Shown here in pieces: positions 38,227 through 64,000 of a stretch of 64,000 nt of DNA. The notes below the pieces were generated by a model that made no database searches, had not been told where the DNA came from, and saw only the letters and a program-made list of their open reading frames with translations. Origin of the DNA: Eudorina sp. 2006-703-Eu-15 (Eukaryota; Chlorophyta; Chlorophyceae; Chlamydomonadales; Volvocaceae). The DNA is taken from NCBI GenBank assembly GCA_003117195.1, contig BDSI01000014.1, positions 248,001-312,000 on the forward strand. Direction: 5' to 3'. Each line of letters opens with the position of its first letter. Position 1 is the stretch's first letter. Position numbers and translations under genes: made by a program.

Positions 38227-41200
38227 ATGCCTTTTGGCCAAATTGTCATCGGCCCGCCGGGCAGCGGCAAGACGACCTATTGCCGGGGCATGCAGCAGTT
38301 CATGCAAGCCACTGGACGGAAGGTCGCCATCGTCAATCTGGACCCCGCCAATGACATGCTGCCGTACGAAGCCGCCGTGGACGTAGCGGACCTGGTTTGC
38401 TTGGAGCAGGTCATGGCGGAGCTGAAGCTGGGACCCAACGGAGGTGTGAACGGTTGCAAATGGTCTCTTGCCTTGGTGCTGCGACGACTGAGGTGAACCC
38501 ACACCTGAGGTGTGCGGCACGTGTGTGAAGCGATAAAAAACCGAACCGCGAGCACACGGGTGTCACATTTGTGTCAAGCGAGAGGGCCCGCCCGTTCGTG
38601 TTTAGCCAAGAACCCCGCGTGACCCATGTGTAAGAGAAACCGACCCGACCCGACCGGGCCCGACCCATGTGAGTGAGTGCGCGTGTGAGCTTCTTTCACG
38701 ACTCCTACGACTCGCGCCCTGGATCTGATCCTCGCTTGCTCCTCCCCAGGGCTGCTGTACTGTATAGATTTCCTGGCCAAGAACCTCGACTGGCTGCATG
38801 ACAAGCTGTCGCCGCTGGAGAAGGGTGAGCAGGGCATGAAGCGGTCCTGGGGAGGGGCGTCGTCTCCGAAGTGAGGGGCAGCATCCATGGTTGCAAGGAA
38901 TGGAATCGACTGCCGGCCCAGGATCAAGCCAGGGCGACTGTGCGCACGGCTGGATCAGGCCTGGGGGTCCGATGACCGGCAGAGCTGCGCCACCTGCTGT
39001 GCCGTTGGTGCCTCGCAGCGATGGCGCGATGGTGCAATGCCCCGGAGAACTTTTGGGGGCCAGGCCCACTGTAGCCTCCTTCGACTGCCTCCATCCATCC
39101 TCGGTGTCCGACATTGGTTCGCACTGCGCCCCGCAACAGTGCGTATCAACACCCGTATTGTACCCAAACAGCAAATCAGATCAAGACACCGTACCCGCAC
39201 CCTCATGCCAGCCTGCTGTGGTTTTCCAGCTTCACTAATTAGAGCGCCGATACGCGATATGCCGGCTGAAAAGCCTGCTCGTTGGTGATCGCCAGCCACA
39301 CCTCCGCTCGTGCCCTTGAGGCTCAGTGCAGCACCTCGCTTGTCGTCTCTGTTTGCATCAGCTGCCCACGCCACCCACTCGCACCAACCCAACCCGATTC
39401 CGACCCCACACCCAACCCTACGTTGACCCCCCTCACATGTAGAGGAGTACTATTTTCTATTCGACTGTCCTGGTCAGGTGGAGCTGTTCGCGGGGCCGGG
39501 CATCGGTGGCGGCTCGCTGCGTGCCGTGCTGGACGACCTGTCGGGCCCCAAGTGGCACTACCGGCTGGTTGCCGTACAGCTTGTGGACGCGCACTTGTGC
39601 ACCGACCCAGCAAAGTAAGAAGGGCATTGCATCCTGGAAGTGCACCATCAGGTTATCATCTCGCCAGCACGGTTTCTGATCGATTAAAAAGCCATTAACA
39701 GTATTGAATTACAATGTATAGAATGCAATTAAAGCATTTGTACAACTTTGATTGAGAATGGAGCATACCGGGATCGATCCGGTGACCTCACGCATGCAAA
39801 GCGCGCGCTCTACCACTGAGCTAATACCCCGTGAATATTGGGTGAAAGTTTATTAAATATAAGAGCTCAACTGGAGCGCGTATGCGCGGCTTGACCTCGA
39901 GTCCTGCCAGCCCGCCAACCTGGCGGCGACGATGGCCGGATTTGTAACCCCTGCCCGCCCCGCCCCGTCTGGCCGCCAGGTACATCTCTGCACTGCTGCT
40001 GTCCCTCAATACGATGTTGTTCCTGGAGCTGCCGCACATCAACGTCCTGTCCAAAATGGATCTGGTACGACAGTACGGCAAATTGGGTGAGTTCGTGGGC
40101 TGACTCGCTACTGCGATAGAACAAACAACCATGGATTGCGAGGCACGGTTTGTAATCCTCATTTGTCCACATCGATGTCCGGCGCGGTCATGGGCAGCCT
40201 CAGTTGCACGGAAATATATTTTTAATGAGAAGCCGCGGGTGGTTTCACCTCGTGGGTGACCAGCTAGAAGATACCGTGGGTTCCGTGACGCACCCGCCCG
40301 CCCTGCGGCCGTGCACCCTCACCCTCTTGCCCCAGACTTCAACCTGGACTTCTACACTCAGGTCCAGGACCTGGGGTTCCTGGTGCACGCCATGGGTGGA
40401 AAGCCCTTCTCCCAGAAGTTCAGGTGGGGGCCACCCACGGCCGCCCGCGCAACGCCGGGGGAGGGAGCTGCCATGGCGGGGCGAGGTTGCGTGATTAGCC
40501 CTACAGGACACCCGGCCGAACCAACCCTGATATGCGACGCGTACCGCATGAACCTCGTGCGAGGACACCATCAAAGTGATGCACCGGCAGGCGGCTGGGA
40601 TCCGGTTGTGATGGCTGCCCCATGCAACCAGTCCAGGCTTGGCGTGCTGACGCACTCGGGATCTGGGGTGAAGCGGTCGAGAACACGTTTCTCGCTGGGC
40701 TCCTGGGTCGGTCACAAATACGAAAAAATAGTCGACGTTTCCTGGAAAGGCGAGCTGGCCCCTCTGAGCTCGCCCATATATGCGCAGTGCAATGCAGACG
40801 CAAATAAAGCGCGTCACGGCTGTCATCGGGGGGACCCACTGAGAAACATCATTGACAGAAAGCGCGTTCCTTTCCGTGGGGCACCGACGGTGCGTGTTCG
40901 CGCTGGGGGCCGAGCCAAGCCATCGGGCACAGAACGACGACAAGCTACCGTATTGGTTTGATGGCCCCAACAGTCCTCGGTCGTACCGGTCGACGAAATA
41001 ACGGTTGCGGTTGGGTCCCCGTTTCGCGATGTTTCCCCGTGGTGCCGCTCGTTGATGTGCTTCCAGGAAGCTGAGCCAGGAATTGTGCGAGGTGGTGGAG
41101 GAGTACGGCCTCGTGTCGTTCCTGCCTTTCGCCGTACAGGTACGTAAGCAATCGTACTGCGCGACATGCACTGGATGATTGCGCTGTCAGTGAGCGCAGA

Positions 41201-45049: not shown

Positions 45050-47592
45050 ATGGAGGGTGACTTCACATCCCGCAGTACCCGACCACATCAGCAGCAGCAG
45101 CAGCAGCAGGGAAGTCGCGATGGCCATGGCAGCAGCAGCAGTAGGTTTGCAAACTTTTGGGACGCCCCCATAGGTACTACTCGAAATTATCCACGCCAGG
45201 CATGGCAGGAGCACTCTTCCTGGAGCGGGCTGCCAGCAGCAAGTGCGGGAAGCCCTGCCGGCCGTGCTTTTCGCCCCTTCTCGGGTGCTGGCACCAGCCC
45301 TGGCGGCGGGGTGCTGCAGTCGTCTGCAAATGGAGTCATCAGGGGGAAGAGCTCCTGGACCTTGCGGAGCTCTCCTTACTATACCTCCTTGACATCCTTT
45401 CAAGCACGGAGCAGCACTGCAACGGAGTCTCACAGGCGTAGTCGGGGCGCTTTGGGCAGTGCACCATCCACGTCCGGTGCTGCCGGCGGGAGTCCTGCCT
45501 CGCCCCACTACATGACCCCAACTTTTTCCTACATCGCCCACACGTCAGAACCGCGTCATCAGCGACGGCAAACCGCCAGCACATTTCCATCTCCTTTCGA
45601 TGGCAGCAGCTCTCGTCATCTGCAACCGTCCCGCGTAGCTTGGGAAGCCATCAACACACCCATGCCTACTACTGCTGACATGATGGCTGTTGACAGCGGC
45701 AGCAGTCACGGAGGACAAGGCGGCAACACTCAGAAGGGCGGGGTAACCATCCAGCTTCCGCATTTGAGGAAGGGATTTGCTGTCGCAGCGTCAGCAGTGG
45801 CAGATACGCCTGCTGATGGCACGGCAGGGCAACACCGAAATGACATGACTTATTACCACCAAGGCAGGCAGGGGGCTGCCCAACAGCAGCAGCACTCACG
45901 CCTGAGAGAGCCCCGTTTGATGAGGCGAGCCCAGTTACCAAGTTTGGAAGCCAGGATGACGGGGAAAGGCGAAAGCCAGGAGGACGCCGAGCTAGCCGCC
46001 GTACAGGCTGACAAGGAGCGGGCAGAGCAGCTCTTGAAAGAGGAGGCAAAGCGTGTAAGGAACCTGGAGAGGGAGCTGGCACGCTTAATCCTGCCTGATG
46101 AGGACCATGAGAACGTGGACAAGGTAGATGGGGCTGTATGTATGCAGCGCACACATGTATATATGTGGTGTGAGAGGATGGACGCACAGTGTAATAGCTC
46201 GCTCAATCTATTTGGATCCCTAACTGACATGCATGGTAATAATGGTAATGATTCGTTGCGCCATGTATGCTTGCATGCGCCATCTACGTCGATGGTCGGT
46301 AGATACGCCATTCACATTGCTTCCTCGCCATGTGCACAGATCAAGCCTTTCAAAGGGCGGGTGCGGTGGACTACGTGCGTACATGAGCGAGGTTAGCTAG
46401 CTGCTGTCAAGTTACGCGCAGGCCTACAGCCCTCGCTCGCTCACATTATTATTGCTCTTTCGTTCATCTCATGCGTCCGTGCCAACCCGCATGTATGCGT
46501 TGCGTGCGTGCAGGCCCTGCTCGTCACCTTCCCAGGGAGCAGGTGCGTGGACCAGCTGCCGGACGCCATTCAGACGCTGCTGGACGGCATGCCGCGCAGC
46601 ATCGCCACTGCACCCATGCGGCTGCTGCGGATTGACACGGTGATGCGGTAAGTATGGCTGCGCTGCTTGATTGGTCTGTCGTTCACTGTAGCTCCACGTA
46701 ACGAAATGAAGTGTAGAGCGGAGGGCGGGATAACATGCATCTATCTGGGGAACGTTTGTGCGTTCGTTCGTTTGTTCGTAACGGACGGAGTCGTTGTAAG
46801 TGGCGCCTCCGGCGCGGTTTCGGAGCGGCTTCTGCCGGGAGCGGAAGATTCACCGTACCTCCACGTAGCGAGGTGATCTGAACGCTCCCCGCCGTGGCAG
46901 AACGGTCCTAATCGTAGCCCAGCAGGTCTCAGTCACGGGCCCTGGATCACAACGCCTGTAGCCGTTTCACCCTGGCATGACCGGGAGTGTGCGAGCACGG
47001 CCGAAGGAGTGCCGTAGGAGGCCACCACAACCTCTTATTAGTGACCACGGCCTTAGCCAAATGTCTTTTAGCTGAAGATTTTCAGCCTGACCGAGGGTGC
47101 GAGAGCACGCCCGAGGAAATGCCGTGCGTAGCCGAACGGTCACAGCTGTAGCGGAAGGGTCCCAGCCATGCCAGAACAGTGGGTTGGTAGGAAAGCATAC
47201 ATAGAGTGTGATCATGCCCAAGGCCTTGCCGTCGAAGGAACATCAACGCTCGCACCTTCAATCAGAACGAACCCTTTGTGATCACGGTCGTTGTCGAATG
47301 GCACCAGCATGACTGAGGGTGCATGGGTGCAGGGTAGCACGCCCGAGGGAGAGCTGTACCTGAACGGTCGTCCCTGCCCTTAAACATATGTATGTGACAT
47401 ACGCGCACACCCATCGATTGTCTTGCAGCAGCCCCTGCCTGGCTGGCCAGTAGTGTATGTAGTCAGTGCGTACCTTAGCTTCAGGGCTGGCTACTTCAAT
47501 CATTTACTTAAGTACGTAATACACACACACATAATTGTGTGTATGTGTATATATTTTTGCGGGTTTCTTCTTTAAACACACCCACAGTTATC

Positions 47593-47632
<40 letters not shown>

Positions 47633-47943
47633 GCGGGCGGGCGGGTTGCACTTCTAAACACACACATTTTGCTTGCAGGTGGGTACATTGCGATAACAAC
47701 GCGAGGATCGCACGCACGCACAGCATTGTGGTGTGAGTCCGCGTGGCCAAGGCAGCCGACCCGCACCAGCTGGTAGTATTCCGAGCGCGCAAAAGCGTGC
47801 CAAAAACCAACAGCGCTCTTCCGACACCGCAGCCTTCTTTTCCTTTTAGGGCTCGGGCAATGGGTATACTATATGCGCAAACGGGCAAACTATCGGGCGC
47901 CGATCGGCCCCTCGCATATCACGCACACCTGTTCTGCCTGCCT

Positions 47944-47995
<52 letters not shown>

Positions 47996-50900
47996 AGGGA
48001 TGAGGGACAGGACCGGGGAGGCCGCGAGTCAGGCTCGGCGTCGGGGCTGACCGGATCGTGGGTTTGCGGGCTGTGAATGGGGAGCTTCGGGTGCGATGGG
48101 TGGGTGGAATCCCCGAGCCTTGTAGGCGATGGCCGTCACGGGTCAGGTCAACGCGCTAGGGTTTTTGCTGGCCTGTGCTGCCGATAGGTTGCCAAAGCTC
48201 AGCCAGTGAGCCCTATCTGTCGTGAACCTGCCCCTCGGCGGCCTGCCGCGTCTGGGCAGGGCTCCTAGGATGGATAGCGTGGACGTGCACGCCCCAGAGC
48301 TGCCTCTCTGACAGCCACCGAGGGCCTGAACCAGCCACCAGCGGGGTACGCGGCTGCTAGGAGATGGACTGCTTAAGAGCTAGGCGTAGGACTCCCTGCT
48401 AAGAGCCGGAATACCGGCTCGGGCGTCGCCCAGTTTATGTGCCTGGCGGGAACCCCCATGAGGGGACACCCCAGGTGCTGCAAGGAAATGAGGGAGGGCG
48501 GCAATGCCAGGCCCACGAGGCACTGGCGCTGCACGGGGCCCAGCCGAAGACGAGACGGCATGGCTGAGGCCTTTGTTTTCGTAGAGATACCGCGGTGCGT
48601 TCCAGGCCGCGCGAGTGCTCTAGGTCGAGCAAGGGGGGATGCGGCCCCTCACGCCCCTCTCCCTCCCCCGCAAAGGGAGGAGAGTGCTTCGGCGGTCTTT
48701 CCGTTAGGGCTGGGTTGGCAGCCCTTGGCCAGCGTCAGGCCCGGTCAGATATGTAACAACCACACACACACACACACACAAACACGCACATGAGACTATG
48801 ATACATACCGCGCCAGCAGGTGGTCGAGTATCAAGGTGTACGAGGAGGTCACGGCGAAGGAGTGTGTGGATGTGCCGTACTCGCGCGTCAGCGACCAGCT
48901 GTGGGCCATCACGGCGGTGCTGAGCTGGCGGTGGGGCGCTCCGAAGCCGGCTCAGTACACGCGGGGATTCAGTCCTATGGCAGAGCCGCAGTTCAAGGAG
49001 TTCAAATTGGTGCTGCAGCAGGCCCAGCAGGAGGGCCTGGTCTTCGTCTGGGTACGTAAGCAATCAGAATCAATGGCCTGCTGGCCATTGTCGCCTGGGC
49101 GGAGTCATGGAGATGGAGTCATAAAAGAGGGGTGCGCAAGGCAGATTGACCTGGGACGTTGTCTGTCAGTGGATGCATGTGGTGATGGAAAGGCGTGGGC
49201 GTTAGTTGCATGTCGGGGCCGAGGAACTTTAAACAGCCCGCACATGCTTCTGGATCGGATGCTTGATTGATGAAGAATGATCTTCCACCAGCGAGGAATA
49301 GCTTGCTAGTGTACATATTAGTACGGGCGCTCCTTTATTCATGCAGCAATAAAGGGGGCATTTTTAGCATTTTGGCAGCTCCCCTGGTGGTGCGACAGTG
49401 CATACAGGGGTGACTACGCCACCGTAAACCCTATTAAAGACGCGCGCAAGGTCTCCCCGTTGCAGCGCTGTATAGTCTCACCTTGCCTCACCCCCCCCTT
49501 GGCGCCATATTTACTCCACGTGAATCTTTGCGTGCGTGCGCAGCGCAATATATTATTATTGATTGTAAATACCACTATTACTGTAACAATATATATAATA
49601 TTATTTCATTTACAAGATTAACAACAGTTGGTAATAATATTAATATTCTGTTTATGTTTTACGTCTTTAACATTTATTGCAACCGTTGCAAGATGGGACT
49701 GCACGGGTGGGTTTGGAAGCGCATCAGGTGTGATATGTACGTTGTTCCAGCCAAAACTGCGTGCGTTTGTCTGGCAGGTGGCGGGCTTTGAAACCACACA
49801 GCAGCGTACGTATTCCGTGGCTACTGCCGGGACTCTACCTATCCCGTAAACCGCGGCTGTGTGCTCCTTCTTGCCTCGCGCAGATTGATTGGAGCTGCGT
49901 CCCGCAGTACAGCGCCCCCTCCATGGTGGAGGTGCTGCGCAGCAAGGCGTTCTATGCACGTGCTCGGGCCATGATCGTCATCCCCACCTTCACTAGCATG
50001 GTGCGTGCTTATTATCTAGGTAGTCATCAAAGAATGTGTTGTTATTAATTTGAGGTTTGGCCATGGTTGCAGTATGTAGAGATTCCAAGCAAGGGCGCGC
50101 GTGCTTGCTTATAAACTACGACGTCCATACGTACGTCATACCGCCTGATATGCCAAGCAGTAGTGAGTTCACCGCATGCCCCGCCGCCCTTGCTTCCTCA
50201 TCAGTCGTTCGCGCGGAATGGTATGCATGGCTGTATGTCCGTCCTACCTGCTGACTGCTCTCGTCACCCGCCTGCCCGCCGCAATCGCCAGCGGCCAATT
50301 CGCCCGATGATTATGCATCCATACATATATATGCGCTGTATGCGTGCGTGCGTGCTGCTTCATGGCCGCAGTTGGACGGGTTTGCCCGGGTCGTGAAGCC
50401 GCTGCTGGGGAAGGTGCGGCGCATGCTGCTGGCCCGCTGCCAGCAGGACACGTCGTCGGCATCAGCAGCAGGCGACTCCCATGCGGCCGCGGCGGCGGCG
50501 GTGCTTAAGCGCATGCTGCGGCGGGAGGTGGTGGGCGGCAGGGAGTACTTCTGCCGGGTGTGGACACTGGCGGAGCGCATGGCACGATACGGACGGTGAG
50601 TGCTACGTACGTACGGAGCGTACGGAGCGAGGCGCGTTTATTAGTGTACGTACGTCTAAACTTTGCTCTTTGCACTCATGCCCGATCAGCAACAGTCAGG
50701 TAATAACAACAGCATTACCAATAAAATATAAATAATGAAAAAAATGATTACAATGGAAAACATAAGTGCGTGATACAATAGTAATGATGATAATAATAAC
50801 AGCACCAGTACAATTATAACCCGTCAACTATATATAATATAACAACAATAATTGTAATCACTATAATAGATACGCTGGGCAGGCGCGCCCTAGCGTGATC

Positions 50901-53900
50901 AAAGGGGCAGGGACGGTGAGGCTCACTGAGGTTATACTGCGCCGCTTCCGCCGACCGGGAGCCCTGTCAGCCAGCAGGTAGATACGCTCGCACGTATGTC
51001 TTCAACTTCTGGTTGCTGCTGGGGCACTCGCGCCACCCCCCGCGCACAGGTCTGAGCAGCTGTGCAACTGGATGTCGCTCGAGGTGTGGCTGGGCATGCT
51101 GGTGGACGCACTGCTGCGGAGCACCGAAGACCCGGCGGCCAGCCAGATTTACCGGAAGATCCTGGTGCGTACGAATGCAAAGCAAGCGAGCGGCGGGCGT
51201 TTGTTGCAGCGCGAAGACATGCAGGCCCGGGTTTGAGCGAGTAGGTTATGTATGTGTCTTGGGAGCGGCGAGGGACCCGCCCGCGCTCAGATGAAAGCCG
51301 ATGTATCTATATAGCCGCGGCGGGTATTTTTGTATACACGCACGGTCGGTCCGTGCGTGTTGCACACAACCGTGAAGACACGCACTGAGAAGACACAGCC
51401 TACAAAATCCGTCACCGACGCGACCCTGCCTACCTGCGTGTGTGACCACGCGGATATACACAGGGCCGCGGCATCAGTGAGCACTTGCAGGCAGCATTGC
51501 AGCCGCTGGCTGAGTCTCTGGAGCTGGGCAGCCTGCACACCGTGGAGGGCCGGCTGGAGGTGCAGCTTGCGCAGCTATTTGAGGAGGCCGTTGGCGTATG
51601 GAGGTCCACTAGCTACCTGTGCGAGGCGCCCACCAGGGCATGGTTGCTGGTACGTGATTGTGTACGGAGTGTGGGAAATGTGTACGGAGTTTGCGACACC
51701 CGATCATCAAGGCATGCATGGATGGATGGATGGATGGACGCATGGATGGATGGATGGATGGATGCACCATGCATTGATGATGACGGTGGTGTAGCTAGGC
51801 AGGGGTGCAGTGGGGCCCTTGGTAGCTCCTCCATCGCTTGGGCTGCTGCGTGCGTGTTATTAGTTGTGGGTATTGATTGTGTGATGAGCAGCACGCACGG
51901 CGGGATAGGACCGCGAACGAGCGAGGAGTAATCCCGAACCGCCGGGTTGGTTGGCTCATCGCTGCACGCACAAGATACACGAGAACTGACATTGCTTCCG
52001 ATGCGGCGGCAGCGATGATGGGTCCCAGCGGCACCCAAGTCACTCCAGCATTAACGCTGCTGCCTTTCTTTTTCTGCTATCTTTCACTGCCATCTAGGAG
52101 TACCTGCTGGAGCTTGACACGGGCGTGTACCAAGCATGGGCGCCCGCTGATCGGCTCTGGGCCGTGTACTCGTACTTCGCCTGGAAGGTATTCACGGCGG
52201 GACAAGTTAGGGGGGCCCCCACAGCCGCTCAACTGAGCTGGCGCCTCCCCGCCTTCTCGAGAAAGGGCGAGCGGATAGAGCTAGGGACCTGCGGCTCTCG
52301 GCTAGCTGCTTTGGAGGCGGCAGATTGCGATTGAGGCCCCTGGCACCTCTCTATCTTCCGCTGTCCGCGGGAATGAAAATATGAAATGGAAAGAGCTAAG
52401 AAGGCTTTTCCATCCGTTGGCGCTCGGCAGCAGTCCTTCGGCCAGCGCTAGGCTCGGTCGGTAAGGCACTTGTAACGACATTCCGTACGCCGGTACGGCA
52501 GAGCCGTACAGAAGCCCAAAACAAAGGTATCACATATGGTTCTTTTTGATAAGTAAGGCTTTGATTACGTCACACACGCGCACACACACACCCCGTTCAG
52601 TTCTCTTTTACACACACGCCGCTTTTCTCGCGACGCAGTCATCCTTACGACCACATACCCACTTCCGCACTACCCTTCACGTATGTACGTATGCGACCAC
52701 ATACGTCGCACGCGTGTCTATCTGTACTGCCCTGCAACCCAAGGACGCCGACCGAACGGATGCGGGACTGCTTGCGGCCCTCAAGGACCTGGTGCGCATC
52801 ATGGGCGGCAGCCTGGAGCAGCTGGCCACCGCGGCGGTGCGGCTGGGGCTGGGCGAGCTCCTCCTGGAGAGTGCCAGCAGTGCCATGCTTCAGCAGGCCG
52901 AGCAGGAGGCTAGGCAACAGGAGCTGTGGCGGCAGGAGGTGGAGAAGCAGAAGCTCCAGGAAGCGGTGCTGAAGGCGATTGTGGATGAGGCGGAGCGCAA
53001 GAAGGAGCGGCAGCAGGAAGCCGAAAAGCGCCAGCTCCAAGAGCACAAAATTACGAGGGCGCTTGGGGCTGCGGATGCAAAGGAGGCGCAGCAGCAGCAG
53101 CAGGCTGGCCGCTCACCAAAGAATTTATCAAAGCCGTGGGCGTTGGTCCCAAAGCGTGGTGTTGCGGCGCCGGTAGACGCGCTGAGCAAGCTGGAACAAG
53201 AGGCAAAAAACCAGAAGCTGCTGGAGGCCGTGGAGGGCGGGGACATGAAGAACCTGGTGGCAATCCTTGCGAGGGGCGCAGACGTCAACACCTCGTACCC
53301 GGTAAAACGATGGGCCCATATGACTGGGTCGGGGCACGCAAGATACGCATGGGTAGCAAGCGCTGGTGCGAGTAGTATGTATTATTAATTGCACGTGGAC
53401 CGCTAGCTTAGCGATACATACATGCTGGGGTGGGCTGGGGGATCCAGCCCCTTGGCAGCTGTGTACGGCTAGGTGCGGCAGGACCGAGTGTCGCTCGGGC
53501 TAGTCGGGCTTCGTTAGTTCCTTGGTGGCCCGCACTTGCTGATGTTAGCTCCCCCTGGCCTGCACCGCTGACCCTACCTTTGACATGTGGCAGCATGCCG
53601 AGCCTCGCTTATCTCTGTCTATCTCGTGCACTCGCGCGCGAGCGCCGACCCGATCCGACCGTACTCTGGCCGAAAATGGTGCATGTCCCCTCAGTGACCA
53701 TCAGGGCCGGTCGCTCGGTTCCTCTTCATTCGTGCCCCATCCTCGTCATTCGTTCCCGCCCCATCGCCGTGCATACATAATAACCGAGCGAGCAGAAATG
53801 TCCATCATCGTCAAACCCCATCTACGTTCTACTACCCCACATACACTCCGCTAGCTACCTACCTGCGCACGCTATCTATCCGCGTTCGACTTGCAGGATG

Positions 53901-56900
53901 GCTGGACGCCGCTGCTGCTGGCCATCCTGCAGAGCCGCACCAGCACTGTGCGTGTGCTGCTCAAGGCGGGAGCCAACACGGAATTGCCAACACCAGGGGG
54001 CTTGGCGCCCCTGATCCTGGCGGTCGAAGAAAACGAAGAAAGGGCTGTAAAGGCGAGTATTCTAGTACTCTAGGTATTCACCAAGCCTTCACCTATCCAC
54101 CCAAGCAATGTGGCATGCAAGGTTGACCTACCACTAGCTACTAAGCTACCACCTACCATCCGTCGTGCGTGCGTGGACGTGCCTCATCAGGCGCTGCTCG
54201 AGGCGGACGCGGACACTGCTGCCACCAACAGCCAAGGATGCACCGCCCTTCACATGTGAGTGATTCGCCCTATGACATTGTCTAGGCGGGACCAGGTAAC
54301 CCTGGGTACGTGCTTGCTTATTACTTGGGCTTACCTTCGTACCAAGGCACGTAGCAAGGAGACTAGGGAGACAGCGCTACCGACCCTGCTGGCTGGGTAC
54401 GTAGTGGGTAACAGGCTGGTGCCGCGCGATAGCTAGGGTGACGCACGGTGCGGGTAATAGCCGGGGACGTCTGTATGCGCCCACCAGCCGTGCGTGATCC
54501 TTGCTCGGCCCCTGGATGGAATGCCCCAACAGATCTTGAGGGAGGTAGCTTGTGCAGGCAGACACAAACCGCTCTACATATGCAGGCAATGCTGGCACTG
54601 CAGACAAGCACTGCTTGATTGTGTCGGCACCATTGCCTGGCCATCATTGGTTTCCTGCTGATTTCCTCGGCGCTGGTTGCTGCTCTGAACCCCTGCGCCC
54701 AACCCTGCTGCCCATCCACATCAGTGCCGCATGGAAGGGGCTGGTCGACAGCGTGCTTGCGCTCATCCGAGCAGGCGCGGACAAGGAGGCGGTTAACAAG
54801 GCAAGGAGCGAACGAAGCAAGGACACAGCAGTAGTGTTGCCGCGCCGCCTACCTGCAGAATGCGTCTGTGGCTGCAGGAATTGTGTTGGGATGTAATACT
54901 ACTCTATTTTGAGCATGGACAGGATAGCTTAGGGGTAGCATGTATGTATGTACGAGGCGGCCGGTTGCAGATGTCACCCCACAGCTGCATACGCATGTCT
55001 GTACGCACGTAGCCCCCACGTGGCCAACCACGGTACCTAGCTAACTGCATGCGCGGCGCACGCCCCTAAAATTGACATCTGTATGCATTCGCGTGCTTCC
55101 TCTAAAATGTGAAGACATTCCGCAGGGCGCGCCACAATAGTGGTTGTCAAGCACAGCTGACATTATATAACCCCGCCTTTTGACACGATGATAAATAGTT
55201 AGTCTCCTTCCAAAACAAAATATGCGGCCGGCGGTGTATGTGTGCGTGCGGTATGTAATTGGCAGTTAATCGGTACCAACCCCCGCACGCACCCCATCGC
55301 GACGGGACGAACTGCAGGACGGCCGGACGCCGCTGCACCTGGCTGCGGAGAAGGGCCACGCCCAAGTGGTCCAGGCCCTACTCGACAGCGGCGCAAACAA
55401 GGACGCTGCTGATGCGGTACGTAAAAACGAACGAAGGCGCAACAGTAGCAGGTCTGTCACTAACGAGCGCGCTCGCTCACTCCATCCACAAGCGATTGTT
55501 GTTTTAGGTTTTACGCTTGGGCGGGCGCCTTGATTCGTTGATTTACATACTTTATGGCATGTTCGTTTGTGTTTTTACATTTATCTCAACACTGGCGCGG
55601 ATCCCGCCGATGATGTACATATGGGTGGCTGTGTATGCACCTATGTACGCGTGCGTTGTGCGTGCGTGGTGGTTCGTAGGGCGGTAGCACTCCGCTGCAA
55701 ATGGCCGCTGCAGCAGGACACCTTGAAGCGGCGGAGGCTCTCGTGGCGGCTGCTGGTGGCTTGAGCGGCAGCACCGACGACGACAGCATTGCTCACCAGG
55801 CCACTGCCCAGGTACGTATGTACGCACTTGCTGTACATACAGCATGTAACGTGCACGCGCATGTACGCGCATTTAAGGTGTCGATACATGCGGTATCGAT
55901 ACATTTAAGCACAAGTCGGCAGTGCGCGCGGTGCACAGCACGCAGCTGCTGCACGCCGTGTCAGATCTGGAGCTTCAAGCAAGCAAGCGGCCTGGAGTAC
56001 ATGTTTGTGTGTGCGTATGCGTGCACCGTGTTCGTAATGTGTGTGCACTCACATATGTCATGGTCGGTGCGCAATCAATCAAGATACATACAAGTGCCGC
56101 CCAATCAAGGCGTGACGGCAGGTTCATTCGTGTTCGTGCACGATGGCAGCAGCAGGTTCTGCAAAAGCTGGAGGCCATGCGGCAGGTTAAGCAGGCGGAG
56201 GAGGAGGACGAGGAGCGCAGGCGCCAGGAGGCCGCTGAGGCGGAGGCGGACGCTCGGCAGGCAGCGGAGGCAGCGAAGGCAGCCGGGGCTTCACTGCTGA
56301 GTGCTGCGGCGGCAGGAGACGTGTCGGAGGCGCGGCGGCTGTTGGAGGCAGGCGCTGTCGTGGACGCGCGCGACAAGGTACGTACATATGTAGGCGGCAG
56401 CTAATAACATGCATGTATGCAATCAATCCAAGTAAGCAGGCAACGTGCCAGCAGGCATACGCACGAACACAACACTTTTGCATGTCTGCGGAGCGCCCGA
56501 ATAGTCGTCAGCAGCAGGGCGGGAGGCTGGCAGGCTGCGTGCTTGCAGGGGACGGCGGTTAATACTGAAAGGTGGGTGGCTGGGCGGGGGGTGAGCGCAT
56601 GCAGATAGCAGCCGTGCGGGTAGGTAGGTCGAATGTATACACGCACCGCCGCTACCTAGCTAACTAGCTATCTGCTGCGTGTGGGCCTTCACGCAGGACA
56701 ATTAACGTTTTTCTGTATGCCATTATTTCATGCTGCTGTTGAGTGCGTGAGGCTCGTGTTGCTTCATGCACATTGTCAAGTGGTACGCAAAAAAGGAAAC
56801 CCACACGAACCAAAGCAGTAATCTATCACGTTCCATTTGCATGTGTCTGTGGATGGGGGCAACAGGATGGCTGCACGCCGCTGGGACTGGCGGCTACCGT

Positions 56901-59900
56901 TGAAGTGGCGGAGGCCCTGCTGAAAGCAGCAGCGGATTACGAGGCCGCAGACAAGGTAGGTCGATCGATGTGAATTACTTTGATTACGCTGCTGCGAAGT
57001 GTAACGAGTACTGTGAGCCAATGCTTCCTGCAATCTCTGCTCATGCGTGATAAGGCACCTTGGGCTCAGTGACTCCATCCGGCAGGTATGTGCTGCAGCT
57101 CGCGAATACATATATATGTATATATATATTGTATAAAACACTCATTATTACTCGTGATGAATGCGTGTTCCCCACCTGCAGGCTAAGCGGCGGCCGGACA
57201 AAGTGGCTGAGTCGCGGGGCAACGTGGAGGTTGCAGACACCATACGTCGCTGGCGCAAGGCTCACAACCCGGTCGCCCTGACGGTGAGGCGCTCTGTGCG
57301 TGGGTGGCGTTGGCGTGTGCTAGCGCATTTAATACTTTCAGCAGAGGCGATGCGATGATTCATCAGGTGCTGTATGTGCTCGAGGGCACAGCAGATAACG
57401 GCGCGCCGGTTCATGCGCATGAACCCCCAGGGCGGAACCCCCAGGGCGGAACCCCCAGGGCGGAACCCCCAGAAGTGGATAAAGCCAAGCACAGGCTTCG
57501 TGTTACATTTCACCCAGCGCAGTGAGTAAAATGACAGCTGCGTGCATTGTCCTCGAAAAGAAAACCAGCTCCTCATCCCCATAGAATGATATACCTGATA
57601 GCCTCCACCAACACTAACGAGTACATACACTCCTGTTGTTGCTAGACGTCAACATTAGGCATCATACCTTCTGCACTGTGGGTAACAGCGTTGGACACCG
57701 CCCAAACAGCCACTTACAGCCTGTCACAGCCAAGTTATCGCGACCGTCACTGACATTGCTGGGAACTGTCAGAGCCCAGACGGTGTCTATTCAACAGCCA
57801 ATAACTGGGGCGCAAATGTTGGCTAAGGCTGTCAGGCTAACATTTCCTGACAGGCAAGCCTGTCAGACCCCCTATGAGTTGGTAGGGTGCGCTGACTACT
57901 CCCAACTAAAGACGGAAACTGATTTTGCTCGCTCCGTCGTGCGGTGCGCGTGGGCGGGCGGGCGTGACATTGCTTCATGCGGGTTGCGCATACAGCGAGC
58001 GAGCGTGCAAGTGTGCGTGTGTGCGCTTCTCCTGTATGCTGTTGGCCGTCATCATTATTCCACGCAGGATGATGACGCCGCCAAGCTCCGCGACATGTTC
58101 GCGGTAAGGCTGAAGCTACGACCTCAGCTGTGTGACGCCGACGTAGAGCTGCTACTGCAACGCGCCGAGGGGACGTCGTGGCGGCTGCAGAAGGTGGAGG
58201 GCTGGATCAAATCAGCGCAGAGCCGGCGACAACGGGTTCTTTGTCTTGTGGGCGACACTGGCGAGGGCAAAAGCTCTGTCGCAGCGGCACTTCTCGGGCC
58301 AGGCAGCAGCGTTGCAAAGCACATCATCGGCTATCACTTCGTGAGGGTAGGTGTTGTAGGTGTTCGTGTTGCGCGCGCCACCAGTTCGTTGCTTGCTGCA
58401 ACAGTATACGTAAGTCCTAATCATTGATCCTGCACAGCAGCATCTTGGGAAGCCATTGGCCGCGCCGTGATACACTCCCCTTCCGGGTTTCAGCGCAGTG
58501 ATTTTATTTGGTTTCCCCTTAGCTTACCCCTGGTTTCCCCTGACTTACGGGCTATTTGGAGCGCAATGTGTACTTAATAGTTTCTTATTGTACCCCAACA
58601 GGCGAACGACAAGAGGCGGCTGGACCCGGTAGAAGTCGTCCACTCACTCGCGTTCCAAGCTGCTATGAAGTACGTTGGCAGTGCCCATGGGCAAGCGGCC
58701 GCCGCATATACCGCATACTGGACACAAGTAACCCGGCAGCCGCATTGTAGGATTACGTGTATCGTTGCATTGGTGGGTGGCTGGAAGGTACAGGTCGCAC
58801 AGCAAAATACTCGCGCTGCAACAGTTGGGCATACCTCTCTACCCCTCCCTCATTATTCTTTAGTGCGTGTTCGATTCTCCCCCATGTAGTCGCTTATTTG
58901 ATGGCTGCTGGATGGCGCTGTTGCTATGCTACACAGGAACCCGGATCATCGCCGTACGCTCCTTAACCCACCTCAGAAGAGATCCTGGACGACCGTTTCT
59001 GATCTCTCAACCCCGGTGTCAGCAGCACTCGAGAACGCGTTTCCTGAACATCGGTACAGGGACGGCGTGCTGCTGTTGGACGGGTTGGACGAGGCGGACC
59101 CACCGCCGCTACCAAGCGCTGGTGCTGATGCCAGCAGCAGTGAGCAGCGGCGGCTTGGCGCTTCATCAGGCGAAGGAATGGCGGCCAGCAATGGAAGCGC
59201 AGCAAATGGAGGAGCAGCGGGTGCCCTGGTCCCGACCACAGGCGGCAACCGCATCCTGCAGTTGCTGCTGAACGAGCTCTGTGATCAGCTGCGGAGCCGC
59301 ATCATTGTCACGGCGCACCCTGGTACAGCTTTCGGTCGCTTGGTGCCCGCCCTGACAGCCAAATACGGCAAGGGTGCAGTGCTGGTGATAAGAATCCAGG
59401 ATCTGCTGCCGGCTGACAGGGAAGGCACAGCAGGCGCGGACGGCAGTGGCGAGGGCGGCTCACTGTTGCTGTACCGCGCCATCCGCCCACTGGCAGAGAA
59501 GGTGCTGCAGAAGAGCGGCAGGTCATTCACGCCGCCGTCATCACACCCCCACACCCCAGGGATAGCCGACGTGTACGGCTTGTACGACGAGCTGCTGCGT
59601 GTGTCGTGGGACTGTGCGGCAGCAAACGGTACACAGCGGCAGCTGGGCGACCTGCTGTCCGTCGTGCTGGCGGCGCAGGAGCCGCTCGCCCTGGGCTTTC
59701 TGCAGCAGCTGGGGCTGGTGGAAGTGATGCCGCTGCTGCCGGGCTATGGCGTAGTGGCTGTGACGCAGGAAGAGCGGCTTCAGGTGCACACCAGCATGCT
59801 GGAATGGCTGGCTGCTGGCGCGGCCGAGGGTGTGATGATGCTGCAGCAGCAGCCACCGTCAGTAGTGGTAGGCGCTGCTGCTGTCGCAGGAGTGGTGTCG

Positions 59901-62900
59901 CGTGAGCGCGGCCACGGGCTGATCGGGCTGGAGCTTGCACGAAACTGGGCGCACGCCGCCATGGAGGTGGGCAAGGAGGCGGAGACGGGCTCCACTAGCG
60001 GCAGTAATAGTGGTTTGGCCGAAACCTACCTGCTGCGATACATGGCGCTGCACCTGGCGGCGGCGACTACTGCAGGCTCTTCGGCAGACAGAGGAGCACC
60101 ACCGGAGCAGGTTGCAGCAGAGCGCGGTGGACTGCAGGCAGAGGCGGCCGCAGCGCTGGACGCGCTGTTGATCGATCCCCGCTTCTGGCACGAGATTGCT
60201 AAGGCGGGGCATCAAGCTCAGCTGCTTGCGGTGTTGGGGGGGATGGCAAGCGGAGGGACCAGCACGGAACGAAGCCGCGCAGTCCTGCGGTGGCTTGGGA
60301 CACAGGCGGATAACTTCCGCGAGCTCGCGCTCACGGTATGCAGCCGTCAGTTTGTGTACCGAGACTTACAGCGGCTGCCGCGTGAGCTCTTTCGGTCCTC
60401 GCCTGGGATCAAGGAGCAGCTCATGCGTGTGCAGGGCTTCCAGTGGCGGCTGGAGGCGCAGCTGCCGCCTGAAGCGGCGGTCGCGGCGGCAGCCACAGGT
60501 GACGAGGCGGTTATCCGCTGTTCAGCCTCATGTATTGCTGCACTGAAGGTGAGTTACAGCAGGTCTTCCGTTTTCGGTTGGGTTTGTTTTGCGTGGCATC
60601 CGGCAAGCATATTGTTAATGTATGAATGATACGATTACTTACGTTGTTGCATGTATGTATATATATGCGTATTTGCAATTGACACGACGGGTTATAAGGC
60701 CATACGTGCATATGTCCGATTCATAGAAGGCTGCTGGCGCTCCGGCACAAACAGAGTAGCCAAGTGTGTCGGAACGCCAGCCTTCTGTCAGCTGCGTAAT
60801 TGCTATCATTGCTACATACCGATTCAGACCAGCCTTCCCGTAGTCGGGGACCAGCCACAGTAAAGATTAAAGACCGCGTATGATGCCCTCTGACGGCCGA
60901 GGGTCGTCCTTACCTCGCGCCGTCCCATTTCTGCAAGTCTAGCTAGCTAGCTAAGGGTTATTATTTATTTGTGTCGATGTCTCTTGCAACTGGGACATTC
61001 CGCACCTGCCTCGTTCCGGATCTCCACGTAAAAGGCCGCCAGCCGCTTGGCCGCGTCCTCGTTGACGCGCGGGGAGCACTGGCTGCGGCAGTAGTGGATG
61101 TAGCGCTTGAGGAATTCCACGTCCTGCCGGTCAGGGAGATCGGATCCGGTGGTCGACAGTTGAAATCAGCCCGAGCTGCGTACCCTAACCACATGCATGT
61201 ATGTACGAATCCATCCATCACAGGGTCACCACTACTACGAATGGACTTGGGGCGGAGAAACATACGGAAAAGTTTTCTCAGTGGCCTGGTCGCCGGATGG
61301 GAGGCAGGTGAGCGAAGTGCAGCAGCTTAGAACTGCCAGCCATATATACATCTGCGGGTGTGTGCCCTGTCCACGTGCTTTGCTTTGCATGCATGGTTCC
61401 AATCGCGGGTGTGTGCGCACAAGCTAAGCAGGTGTGACCGTTGAGGGCTATCTATCTCTGAGTTATTGCGCCATCCAGGATCAGCATTGCCCTATCTGTG
61501 TTACCATACTGCCTCTCATGATTTGCGAGCTTATTATTTGCGAGGACCGAAAATGAACAACATATTCAAAGTTGGAAACTATAAACATTTATTTGCGAGG
61601 CGTGCTTCGTTCCGAATTTTCCTCGGAACCAATAATATCTGTAAAGCACCCCGCCCGGCCGTACATTAACCAGTTTTGCGAGGTTGCTATGCGCGCTCCT
61701 CCAGGCGGAAACAAATAAACGTAGGGGGCGCAGTAAGTACCGTAGGTATTGCAACCCCGGACCTGTCACAGGCACGCCGTGGCACGCACGCAAAGGCTCA
61801 TCACAGTCGACCCTGCGTATCCAACGGCACACCTAGCACATCGTCCATGCGAGCGATTTGCGAGGCTATCAACGTATTTGTTTACAACCTATAATTATTT
61901 GCGGGCTATCTGCCCGCATTTGTTCTAGAGTTTTGCGTGGCCGTAAATATTTAATATTTACTCGCGAATAATTAGAGGCATTACGGCAACATATTTTATT
62001 TGTAATAACGGAAATGAAACAAGCAACGACATCGATCCGAATGATGGATTTTGTCTTGGTACACGCTATGCGATGTATGTATCCCGCGCGCACCATGCCT
62101 TCGTTCACAGTCACCATTTGATATGCCTGCATGCATATCCGTATGAATGGTCTATGAGGTAGGCTACCGACACCCAGCTGTCACGCACGACCTTACTTGC
62201 AGCTGCTGAGCGGTGGCGACGACAGGACGCTGCGTGTGTGGGACACGAGGAGCTTGGGTTGCACAGCCGTCATGGTTGGCCCCAAGGGAACAGAATACAG
62301 TTCCGATCTCGATGTACAAGTCATGATTGCACCTTGGATGTACTCCGCGGCATGGAGCCCCGACGGACGCCTCCTCGCAAGTGGCAGCCTCGACTACGAG
62401 CGTACAGGCCATTCGTCTTGCATATCATTGCGACAGCGGCCGAATACCTGCGCGGTGCGGCTGTGGGATGCGGTCACGGGCGTGTGTGTGGCGACACTCA
62501 ATCCTGGAAAAGGTGTTGTGGACGAGCACGGCGTTCGCAGTGTGACTTGGTGCCCCGGCCGACCCCTGCTGGCTGCTAGCGCTGGCACGCAGGTGAGATA
62601 ATACATTTGCCTTGATGAGAAGTAAGTGCATGCAGACGGAATTTTGTTGTTTGTCAAACTAACGAGGCAGAGCCTCGCTTGTGGTCGTCAGCTAGCGTGG
62701 GTACCTATACCGACATACGTACATCTTGCATGGGACAGAATACTGAGGTACTGCGTGATGATTCACCTCGCCGGATGGACTGGATGGAACCTCATCCTGT
62801 ATTAGTTGTTAGGTGGACCCGAGTCCCGACCGGGTCTGCCAACGGGCCCAGATAGCGCGTAGGCGCCTCATCTCATCAACCCCTACCAAGGACTACGCAG

Positions 62901-63714
62901 TACGCACCCATCCTCCATCACCCGCTGGGGGGTCATGCAGCCATACCAGCCAACACACCAGGTTACCAGCGCGCCAGGATTGCCTCTCCCGGAAACCGCG
63001 CCAGCCAGACCAGCCGAATCACATGGCGGGGAGGAGCCGGGATTCGAATCTCGGATCTCTGTAATCTCTGCTGGAGAAAATGCCATCGTACCGTGTTTCC
63101 CATACGACACCCATACCTGCTGTTCACGTCCCGTTAATCAACGTCTATGGAGTGAATGTCAGGTGTACGTGTGGAGCGTCTCTGAAACGGGAACCTGCAC
63201 AGCTGTGGCCACACTGCGAGGCAACACGGGCGCCATCCACTGTGTTGCCTGGGCGCCGGATGCGGGCGACTGGCTTGCAAGCGCCGGCGCAGACGGGGTG
63301 GTGCGCGTGTGGGACACATCGGAAAGCAACCTCAGCACGGCGGCATCCGCCAGCAGCAGCCGTGTAAATGCAACAGCAGAGATGATGGGACACACCGGCG
63401 CTGTCCGGAGCTGCGCATGGCGACCCACTACTGCTGCAGTTGATGCAGCAGCAGACGGTGTGGCGACCGCAACAGGGACGACGGCGACGGCCCATCCATT
63501 GCTGTTGGCCACCTCGGGTGAGGACAAGGAGCTTCGGCTGTGGGAGGTGCCGGGCGGCCGCTGCACCGGAGTGCTATCCAGCGGCCATGGCGGCACCGTC
63601 ACCTCACTCAGCTGGGAGCCTAACGGCGCGCGGCTGGCCAGCGGCAGCCAAGACAAGACGATCCGGGTGTGGAGCTCCGCCGGGCTGGAGGTCAGCGACT
63701 GGCGCTGCCTGCAG
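45050..63714 (+). CDS. NLR/STAND receptor-like protein: HET-like + ankyrin + NACHT + WD40, 3'-partial
   Basis: Twenty-five exons join in phase into at least 2326 residues and run off the window. Exons: 45050-46123, 46514-46647, 48820-49051, 49884-50000, 50372-50595, 51050-51164, 51464-51649, 52098-52187, 52744-53301, 53897-54052, 54191-54255, 54725-54800, 55318-55416, 55680-55811, 56156-56377, 56866-56955, 57182-57283, 57367-57521, 57773-57938, 58068-58346, 58602-58669, 58937-60548, 61224-61307, 62203-62592, 63163-63714. Order: disordered Ser/Gln-rich N terminus with a Q7 run and short coiled coil (1-358), HET-like region (about 400-600), helical linker, coiled coil, about eight ankyrin repeats (about 890-1190), NACHT (about 1340-1700), helical region, WD40 from about 1985. 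Such STAND proteins are signal-sensing ATPase switches; WD40 and ankyrin repeats usually sense ligand and the N-terminal domain executes the response. Exons 2 and 19 are the least certain. Exons 10 and 12 use GC donors. Start: first in-frame ATG, context GCTATGG. Confidence 0.85.
46970..47370. repeat. Degenerate tandem repeat in NLR intron 2
   Basis: Three related blocks starting near 46976, 47089 and 47310 share GTGCGAG/AGCACG, CCGAGG and (G)TGCCGT/GAACGGTC words. Unit boundaries are unclear. Confidence 0.45.
47597..47630. repeat. (AC)n microsatellite
   Basis: About 17 AC units in NLR intron 2, followed by (GGGC)n. Confidence 0.95.
47863..47993 (+). repeat. Dispersed repeat plus (AC)n tail
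   Basis: 47863-47950 matches the reverse complement of 26341-26425; here it ends CTAAATA and continues into about 22 AC units (47949-47993), suggesting a repeat with a simple-sequence 3' end. Confidence 0.65.
48470..48782 (+). repeat. Retroelement-like 3' tail, second copy, with (AC)n
   Basis: Partner of 18710-18990, ending CAGATATGTAACAACC and (AC)n about 37 nt before NLR exon 3. A third diverged piece is at about 52395-52485 (TCGGCCAGCGCTAGGCTCGG). Confidence 0.6.
48820..50595 (+). other. HET-like domain exons (3-5) of the NLR-like gene
   Basis: Across three exons the protein reads AITAVLSWRWG, then VFVW joined to IDWSCVPQYSA, then KAFYARARAMIVIPTF, then REYFCRVWTLAERMARYG. These correspond in order and rough spacing to HET-domain blocks LSYxWG, WIDxLCINQ, (I)YxxAxxVivw and WxxRxWxxQE. 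An Ala-rich insertion (AAAAAAVLKRML region) precedes the last block. HET is related to TIR; in fungi it triggers cell death. The assignment is by motif reading only and the domain is diverged, so a related TIR-like domain is possible. Confidence 0.65.
51718..51765. repeat. (ATGG)n tetranucleotide repeat
   Basis: About 10 interrupted ATGG units in NLR intron 7. Confidence 0.85.
53190..56955 (+). other. Ankyrin-repeat block with coiled-coil insertion
   Basis: Repeats visible: LLEAVEGGDMKNLVAILARG, DGWTPLLLAI, GLAPLILAVEEN, GCTALHIAAWKG, DGRTPLHLAAEKGHAQVVQA, GSTPLQMAAAAGHLEAAEAL, LLSAAAAGDVSEARRLLEAG and DGCTPLGLAA. Repeat boundaries fall near exon boundaries. Exon 15 inserts a charged coiled coil (KLEAMRQVKQAEEEDEERRR) between repeats six and seven. 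The 33-residue register fixes two splice sites: including VK before ALLEADAD and VNK before DGRTPLH keeps repeat length, which requires GC donors. Confidence 0.88.
57422..57472 (+). repeat. 14-bp minisatellite inside NLR exon 18
   Basis: Unit GAACCCCCAGGGCG, 3.5 copies. As 14 is not a multiple of 3, each copy is read in a different frame, giving PPGRNPQGGTPRAEPPE. The array lies in the linker between the ankyrin and NACHT regions. Confidence 0.85.
58068..60548 (+). other. NACHT-type P-loop NTPase region
   Basis: Walker A is VLCLVGDTGEGKSSVAAALL (P-loop at about residues 1393-1400), followed by the NACHT-typical GYHFVRANDKRRLDPVEVVH (58335-58640, across the 58346/58602 junction) and Walker B GVLLLDGLDEAD (about 1490-1501), the DGLDEA form usual for NACHT. 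Sensor-like RSRIIVTAHPG follows after a low-complexity Ser/Ala/Gly loop. DELLRVSWD...LLSVVLAAQEPLAL (59586-59696) resembles the winged-helix part of STAND NTPases. The donor after exon 20 could be TTC|GTGAGG or AGG|GTAGGT; the second keeps VRAND and is preferred. Confidence 0.87.
60725..60786. other. Strong imperfect hairpin in NLR intron 22
   Basis: Arms 60725-60749 (AGAAGGCTGCTGGCGCTCC...) and 60765-60786 (...GGAACGCCAGCCTTCT) pair over about 20 bp with a small bulge and a 15-nt loop. It could be a miRNA-like precursor, a folded transposon remnant, or chance. Confidence 0.6.
61006..61123 (-). pseudogene. Isolated MCM5-like exon, antisense in NLR intron 22
   Basis: The minus strand reads DVEFLKRYIHYCRSQCSPRV then NEDAAKRLAAFYVEIRNEA, the C-terminal lid region of an MCM replicative helicase. 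The pattern YCRxxCxPR...AA..L...YVxIR is MCM5's. It is open for 118 nt, preceded by the acceptor CAG (61126-61124) and followed by the donor GTGCGG, so the splice sites look intact. No neighbouring MCM5 exon was recognised on this strand. It is most likely a duplicated gene fragment carried into the intron. Confidence 0.75.
61520..61980. repeat. TTTGCGAGG-rich AT-leaning intron segment
   Basis: TTTGCGAG(G) recurs near 61528, 61543, 61592, 61675 and 61857 with variants at 61900 and 61930. It lies in NLR intron 23 and is compositionally unlike its surroundings; identity unknown. Confidence 0.45.
62811..62895 (+). repeat. Dispersed repeat, fullest copy
   Basis: Holds both core words GGTGGACCCGAGTCCCGAC and CCAACGGGCCCAGAT plus CCCCTACCAAG; relatives at 42329, 42879, 41942 and 18273. 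In NLR intron 24. Confidence 0.8.
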
Positions 63715-64000
63715 GTAGGTGATAAAGGCTGGGTACGTGCGAAGTTGCCGATGAAAGCATCTGCTACCCTAACAGCTGGCATGCATATACATCTATACAT
63801 GTGTGTGTATGCATTTTGCAGGTATGGCGTGGGGTTGAATCCTATACATCTATCGCAGGATCTCATCAGGAACACATACATACACGCACCTCATAATTCG
63901 TAACAGCGTGTGTATGTACGTCCTCTTCACATACATCCACTCTGCACATATTGCGAGCTCGGGCTGGCATGCAAAGTGGGGTTGTGGCTTAGCTTGTGGA

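Follow-up and report, generated by a model that had tools for sequence, protein, structure and literature searches.

A gene on the forward strand of this Eudorina contig probably encodes an intracellular NLR-type STAND receptor for cell death or defence, working by the mechanism proposed below. In our reading, an N-terminal HET module and ankyrin repeats are followed in it by a NACHT-type NTPase and a WD40 propeller. It starts within the window, by which we mean the whole stretch of 64,000 nucleotides analysed (positions 248001-312000 of contig C14, in a searched genome of 181 Mb), and "NACHT" is used for it in the wide sense of a STAND NTPase. Our spliced model has 25 exons, runs from an ATG at 45050 to a stop at 66510, and encodes 2724 amino acids with no internal stop. 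A receptor is supported by this open 25-exon frame, by Pfam matches to HET, NPHP3_N, Ank, and WD40, and by retention of Walker A, Walker B, and the winged-helix histidine. Two findings count against the reading as a full receptor: sensor-1 has histidine instead of arginine, and the relatives found are either HET-ankyrin or TIR-like-NACHT-WD40 proteins, none of them with the full combination.

A preliminary description made from the letters alone had listed HET, ankyrin, a P-loop GDTGEGKS, LLLDGLDEAD, and WD40 blocks; all are there, in order on the plus strand and in one open spliced frame, beginning with an ATG at the start position that it had given. It had also placed the sensor end outside the window, and the adjoining DNA carries the gene 2.5 kb past the window's end. 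Its estimate of more than 2300 residues was too high: counted through the last exon to finish inside the window, the model has 2232. We built it by exon finding with a higher intron cost and with homology-guided sites, several of them hand-picked on homology; an unconstrained search in which introns cost little produced over 100 exons, mostly spurious, and was dropped. Of the 24 introns, 23 are GT-AG, and one, after 54800, has a GC donor. That donor is among the uncertain splice choices, together with a weak donor after 51230 and the acceptor at 56150; the first two exons are uncertain as well. The exon chain scores 697.2 on the plus strand and 112.0 on the reverse complement, a control biased towards the model because codon usage and splice matrices were trained on that same model. 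It is the domain matches that place the gene beyond chance.

The model is least certain at the N-terminus. Exon 1 (45050-46123; 358 codons), a low-complexity Ser/Gln-rich segment with a short coiled coil at its end, is open from the ATG and weakly supported as coding: its codon usage is neutral (0.019 per codon), and a finder with low gene cost split it off in two of nine gene-cost runs, with a gene end at 46980 and a new start at 47309. The HET module (approximately residues 384 to 737) begins in exon 2 (46514-46647; MPRSIATAPMRLLRID), which aligns with the N-terminus of the module in its paralogues. The core, with AVLSWRWG, VWIDWSCVPQY, and YFCRVWTLAERMARYG, lies in exons 3 to 5 (48820-50595), and exons 6 to 8 (51050-52187) encode the C-terminal portion of this algal module, helical and, in the paralogue alignment, conserved. 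On joined exons, HET (PF06985) is matched at 29.3 bits (1.3e-6; profile positions 3-146 of 146), above the curated Pfam cut-off of 22.5 bits. A Glu/Gln-rich coil in exon 9 (52744-53301; codon score 0.413 per codon) stands ahead of the ankyrin repeats of exons 10 to 17 (53897-57283). We count seven repeats by eye, the fifth separated from the sixth by a coil; the Ank profile (PF00023, cut-off 21.1) matches six stretches of the joined exons at 116.8 bits (1.2e-34).

The NTPase follows in three exons. Exon 18 (58068-58346) holds a pre-NACHT linker and Walker A, GDTGEGKS (58251-58274); exon 19 (58602-58669; ANDKRRLDPVEVVHSLAFQAAM) aligns with its counterpart in P0006, a Chlamydomonas schloesseri protein; and exon 20 (58937-60548) holds Walker B, LLLDGLDEAD (59070-59099), a sensor-1 VTAHP (His codon 59316), and a winged-helix VHTSMLEWL (His codon 59787). 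These joined exons match NPHP3_N (PF24883), a STAND NTPase family, at 48.5 bits (1.4e-12; cut-off 24.8). The NACHT profile itself (PF05729) gave no match on the joined segment at E values up to 10, with HMMER filters dropping most matches above 0.1, and none in the genome at E≤0.001 with exons read apart. Thus, of the families that the preliminary description had expected of the joined protein, HET, Ank, and WD40 were matched and NACHT was not; its view that a lack of NACHT similarity would speak against the idea is half borne out, since the sister family NPHP3_N is matched in place of PF05729. Features of a STAND NTPase are nonetheless assembled here: the NPHP3_N match, Walker A, a Walker B of the hhhhDxxDE type, and a winged helix with its histidine.

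The sensor-1 arginine motif of STAND and NACHT NTPases is TxR. It reads TTRP in all four relatives with a readable motif (P0006 and loci on C144, C15, and C48) and VTAHP in this gene, suggesting that nucleotide handling may be altered or impaired; the winged-helix LHKSL has likewise become VHTSM, with its histidine kept. These two changes, and the neutral codon usage of exon 1, would fit a copy that is decaying or has taken on a new function: a fused relic, whether or not it is transcribed, whose NTPase switch has been lost. We think this quite unlikely for a locus with 25 open exons and intact Walker A and B, where the codon score is positive for 24 of the 25 exons, though near zero for exons 1, 4, and 21. 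A second consideration comes from the STAND match itself. The top profile is the nephrocystin-3 N-terminal one, and scaffolds commonly carry WD40 and ankyrin repeats, so the product might be a scaffold with a regulatory role, ciliary or of the TANC or nephrocystin kind, rather than an immune receptor. However, the nephrocystin name spans many NLR-like proteins, and the N-terminal HET module and the TIR-like domains of the paralogues speak for signalling in death or defence; we give a scaffold very little weight and retain the receptor.

WD40 blades occupy exons 21 to 23 (61224-63714) and, beyond the window in extended numbering, exons 24 and 25 (64413-64673 and 65293-66510), all on the plus strand. 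The C-terminal 834 residues (1891-2724) match WD40 at 179.1 bits in total (4.3e-54). The eight blades of exons 21 to 25 are at most 0.47 identical in pairwise comparison (mean, 0.31), and the seven ankyrins at most 53%. In the available text of PMC4986451, the repeats of the fungal HET-E, HET-D, and HET-R proteins are highly conserved. Given such diverged blades, allorecognition, to which the earlier description had inclined, is not supported, and we set it aside as the leading role; general defence or stress-triggered death would be the safer and likelier reading. The execution-switch-sensor layout that it had proposed finds support in the profile matches and in the TIR-like domain upstream of the NACHT paralogues. 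The ankyrins may be an additional sensor, as it had supposed, or may simply link the parts.

The HET module has many relatives. A genome search with it returned 18 matches, four of them the gene's own exons and 14 on eight contigs, at no fewer than 11 places. Six of these paralogues match the query over its full length, each within a single open frame and with 49 to 58% identity, and SWRW, DW.C, and WTLAERMAR are kept in all seven rows of an alignment of the gene with these six; the Glu of the WTLAE motif may be the counterpart of the TIR catalytic Glu. Two pairs of HET genes lie within about 10 kb of each other (157341-157985 with 166660-167304 on C134, and 580871-582210 with 587438-588219 on C10), a hint of local clusters. 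Among 5823 candidate proteins, five (P0001 to P0005) matched the HET region and cover 99 to 100% of residues 390 to 740; the nearest are from Edaphochlamys, C. schloesseri, Pleodorina, and Volvox africanus. Two are HET-ankyrin proteins, two combine HET with SH3_15 and SPRY, although in one of this pair, P0004, the HET score of 21.1 is below the cut-off, and one, from Tetraselmis, has MscS, LRR, and HET. Pfam found NACHT, NPHP3_N, or WD40 in none of the five. The Tetraselmis protein (P0005, from EukProt) is an odd mix in its own right, joining HET, a mechanosensitive-channel domain, and LRRs in one predicted protein.

Structural searches added little. Two HET paralogues were modelled with low to middling confidence (mean pLDDT, 67.1 and 55.8), and the first model gave no Foldseek match at E≤0.001; there was no TIR chain among its best 50 of 123 Foldseek rows or among its VIA rows, which cover mainly the helical part, and this is neutral as to a TIR-like fold. 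PDB sequence searches with the NTPase and the HET module gave no meaningful relative.

The NTPase has a different set of relatives. P0006 was the only protein matched by the NACHT region among 7973 scored candidates sharing most words with it, and a shorter NACHT query matched none of 7993 scored candidates. Over the NACHT unit and winged helix, the gene and P0006 are 26% identical (548 columns), and P0006 has the layout TIR-like-NACHT-WD40. Its pre-NACHT domain, with SHTW, VWLDILCVNQ, and RGWCIFEW, looks TIR- or HET-like by eye. The label TIR-like is our own, since Pfam gives HET below the cut-off (E, 0.093) and no TIR family, and BLASTP with the gene's HET module aligned only VWIDWSCVPQY with VWLDILCVNQH (E, 0.68).

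Within the genome, the NACHT exon matches six other contigs at E≤0.001 (C144, C15, C161, C48, C24, and C75). On all six, the TIR-like piece of P0006 matches upstream, on the same strand and within about 4.5 kb; the match is short on C48 (30 residues) and C161 (52 residues). The TIR-like domain and P-loop share one open frame on C144 and C15, where Pfam assigns the N-terminal domain to no family above the cut-off. The TIR-like piece also matches a further contig, C223, and has no match on C14 at E≤1e-6. NPHP3_N matches on C115, C9, and C62 are on contigs without a TIR-like match, so STAND units lacking a TIR-like effector, or of other types, may exist.

We are fairly confident that the HET-ankyrin and NACHT-WD40 parts form one gene, and a single transcript is the reading that the sequence favours. 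The last ankyrin exon and the P-loop exon are 784 bp apart (57283 to 58068), and 431 bp of this gap (57457-57887) is a dispersed repeat, perhaps a MITE or a SINE, with at least 39 further copies across the genome at 81 to 96% identity, some of them partial (40 of 496 candidates were scored). Without the repeat, the gap is 353 bp, shorter than the median model intron of 478.5 bp. The splice sites are in phase 0, with donor (3.87) and acceptor (4.66) scores in the range of the other introns. Together with the TIR-like domain upstream on all six NACHT contigs, the short gap and in-phase sites are our reasons for preferring one gene; the HET module and ankyrins seem to stand in for the TIR-like domain here.

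Two adjacent genes on the same strand, the first encoding HET and ankyrins (45050 to about 57.36 kb) and the second an effector-less NACHT-WD40 protein (from about 58.07 kb), would account for several observations as well. HET-ankyrin proteins stand alone in Edaphochlamys (P0001) and C. schloesseri (P0002), and two HET-ankyrin loci in this genome, on C170 and C57, have no NACHT or WD40 match within 10 kb downstream, so that a pair of neighbours is possible. NPHP3_N loci on C115, C9, and C62 do without a TIR-like domain. Reading through the last ankyrin exon meets an in-frame stop, and upstream of the P-loop there is an in-frame ATG at 58095, the first possible separate NACHT start outside the repeat (another in-frame ATG, 57816, is inside it). 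However, the codons read through past 57283 look non-coding (-4.93 over 23 codons), whereas the nine codons before ATG 58095 are coding-like (+4.57). Before the repeat was inserted, a 3′ UTR and a promoter would both have been confined to 353 bp, and an effector-like domain lies upstream on all six of the closest NACHT-exon contigs. Exon finders lean the same way: none of nine gene-cost runs put a gene end at the junction, but with zero start and stop cost, which broke the locus into 21 to 23 pieces, one of three runs cut there. TGTAA, the poly(A) signal, does not occur at the junction (57001-61639); this is uninformative because it is also absent around the real stop (63364-68000). On this balance we consider two genes rather unlikely. 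Near the HET-ankyrin locus on C170, there is also a frame that looks reverse-transcriptase-like by eye (L038 4854-5390, minus strand; FEKAFDKVPRELMW).

If there is one gene, how might it have arisen? We suggest, tentatively and at somewhat less than even chances, that one NACHT-WD40 unit acquired an entire HET-ankyrin gene on its upstream side, in place of the usual TIR-like effector of a small volvocine NLR repertoire.

What the sequence shows is a layout, domain matches, and paralogues; by analogy with STAND receptors, we infer nucleotide-driven oligomerisation, HET activity, a ligand, and a biological role for this protein. The WD40 propeller would sense a ligand or damaged partner and keep the NTPase closed; upon binding, the NACHT-type module would swap nucleotide and oligomerise. 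Oligomerisation would gather the HET domains through the ankyrin and coil segment, and the clustered HET domains might then launch an alarm response or the regulated death of the cell, perhaps through NAD+ cleavage, an activity that we imagine because HET is kin to TIR. The portion of PMC4986451 available to us describes HET as a distant TIR relative with homologues in green algae, and that of PMC10197012 treats the enzymatic activity of HET as not yet established.

The closest designs elsewhere are fungal. Podospora HET-E, HET-D, and HET-R likewise have an N-terminal HET, a central STAND NTPase, and C-terminal WD40, to go by the accessible text of PMC4986451. The algal gene differs in having ankyrins between HET and NTPase, in its diverged blades, and in its NTPase, whose best Pfam match is NPHP3_N, with PF05729 unmatched and the sensor-1 Arg replaced, the profiles having been run on the algal gene. 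Nearer home, the volvocine TIR-like-NACHT-WD40 proteins (P0006, C144, C15, and others) share a homologous NACHT unit and winged helix with WD40 next, and the pre-NACHT linkers look alike by eye; in contrast to their TIR/HET-like N-terminus (SHTW, CVNQ, WCIFEW), the gene has a true HET module and ankyrins. P0001 of Edaphochlamys and P0002 of C. schloesseri share that HET module (51 to 53% identity over 99 to 100% of residues 390 to 740) and then ankyrins but, unlike the gene, have no NTPase or WD40 families in their Pfam tables.

Among reported algal proteins, the C. reinhardtii NACHT-WD40 proteins of 2016 (PMC4773052) pair a NACHT-type NTPase with C-terminal WD40 as here, and the terms "HET domain," "heterokaryon," and "ankyrin" are absent from that paper. 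Chondrus crispus has the same effector-NTPase-WD40 parts in its TIR-NB-WD40 proteins (PMC7145615), but it is a red alga with an NB domain and TIR, and "ankyrin" is absent from the paper on it. Going by the available parts of these papers, then, green-algal HET homologues (PMC4986451), NACHT-WD40 proteins, and an algal TIR-NB-WD40 are already in print. Two other reports concern different matters, as far as their available text goes: the expanded HET proteins of PMC6652019 are those of the lichen fungus and not of the alga, and the lack of NBS genes in Volvox carteri (PMC11126693) concerns NB-ARC type genes and is neutral to the receptor proposed here. Our protein searches, which cover relatives sharing exact words within set length ranges, gave no HET-ankyrin-NACHT-WD40 homologue from an alga, and the open-licence PMC literature yielded no green-algal HET-NACHT protein.

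The point of interest is the possible exchange of effectors, HET-ankyrin for TIR-like. HET-headed NLRs are presented as a landmark of fungal allorecognition in the available part of PMC10197012. With one of them in an alga whose genome also has paralogues with TIR-like heads, the design would reach into the green lineage, and it could be asked there whether HET acts like TIR. The exchange, if true, would be a natural experiment showing that, in the plant lineage, HET and TIR can replace each other as effectors of NLRs. To our knowledge, little is understood of how cells are killed or protected in multicellular green algae, a question on which an algal receptor of this kind would have a bearing as well.

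Two neighbouring features deserve mention. A tRNA gene lies upstream on the minus strand (39759-39830; Rfam RF00005, 61.7 bits), and directly downstream of the gene, at about 66.9 to 81.0 kb in window-extended numbering, there is a tandem array of units of about 1.14 kb, most of them with a tract of the 12-mer CACAGCTACAGC.
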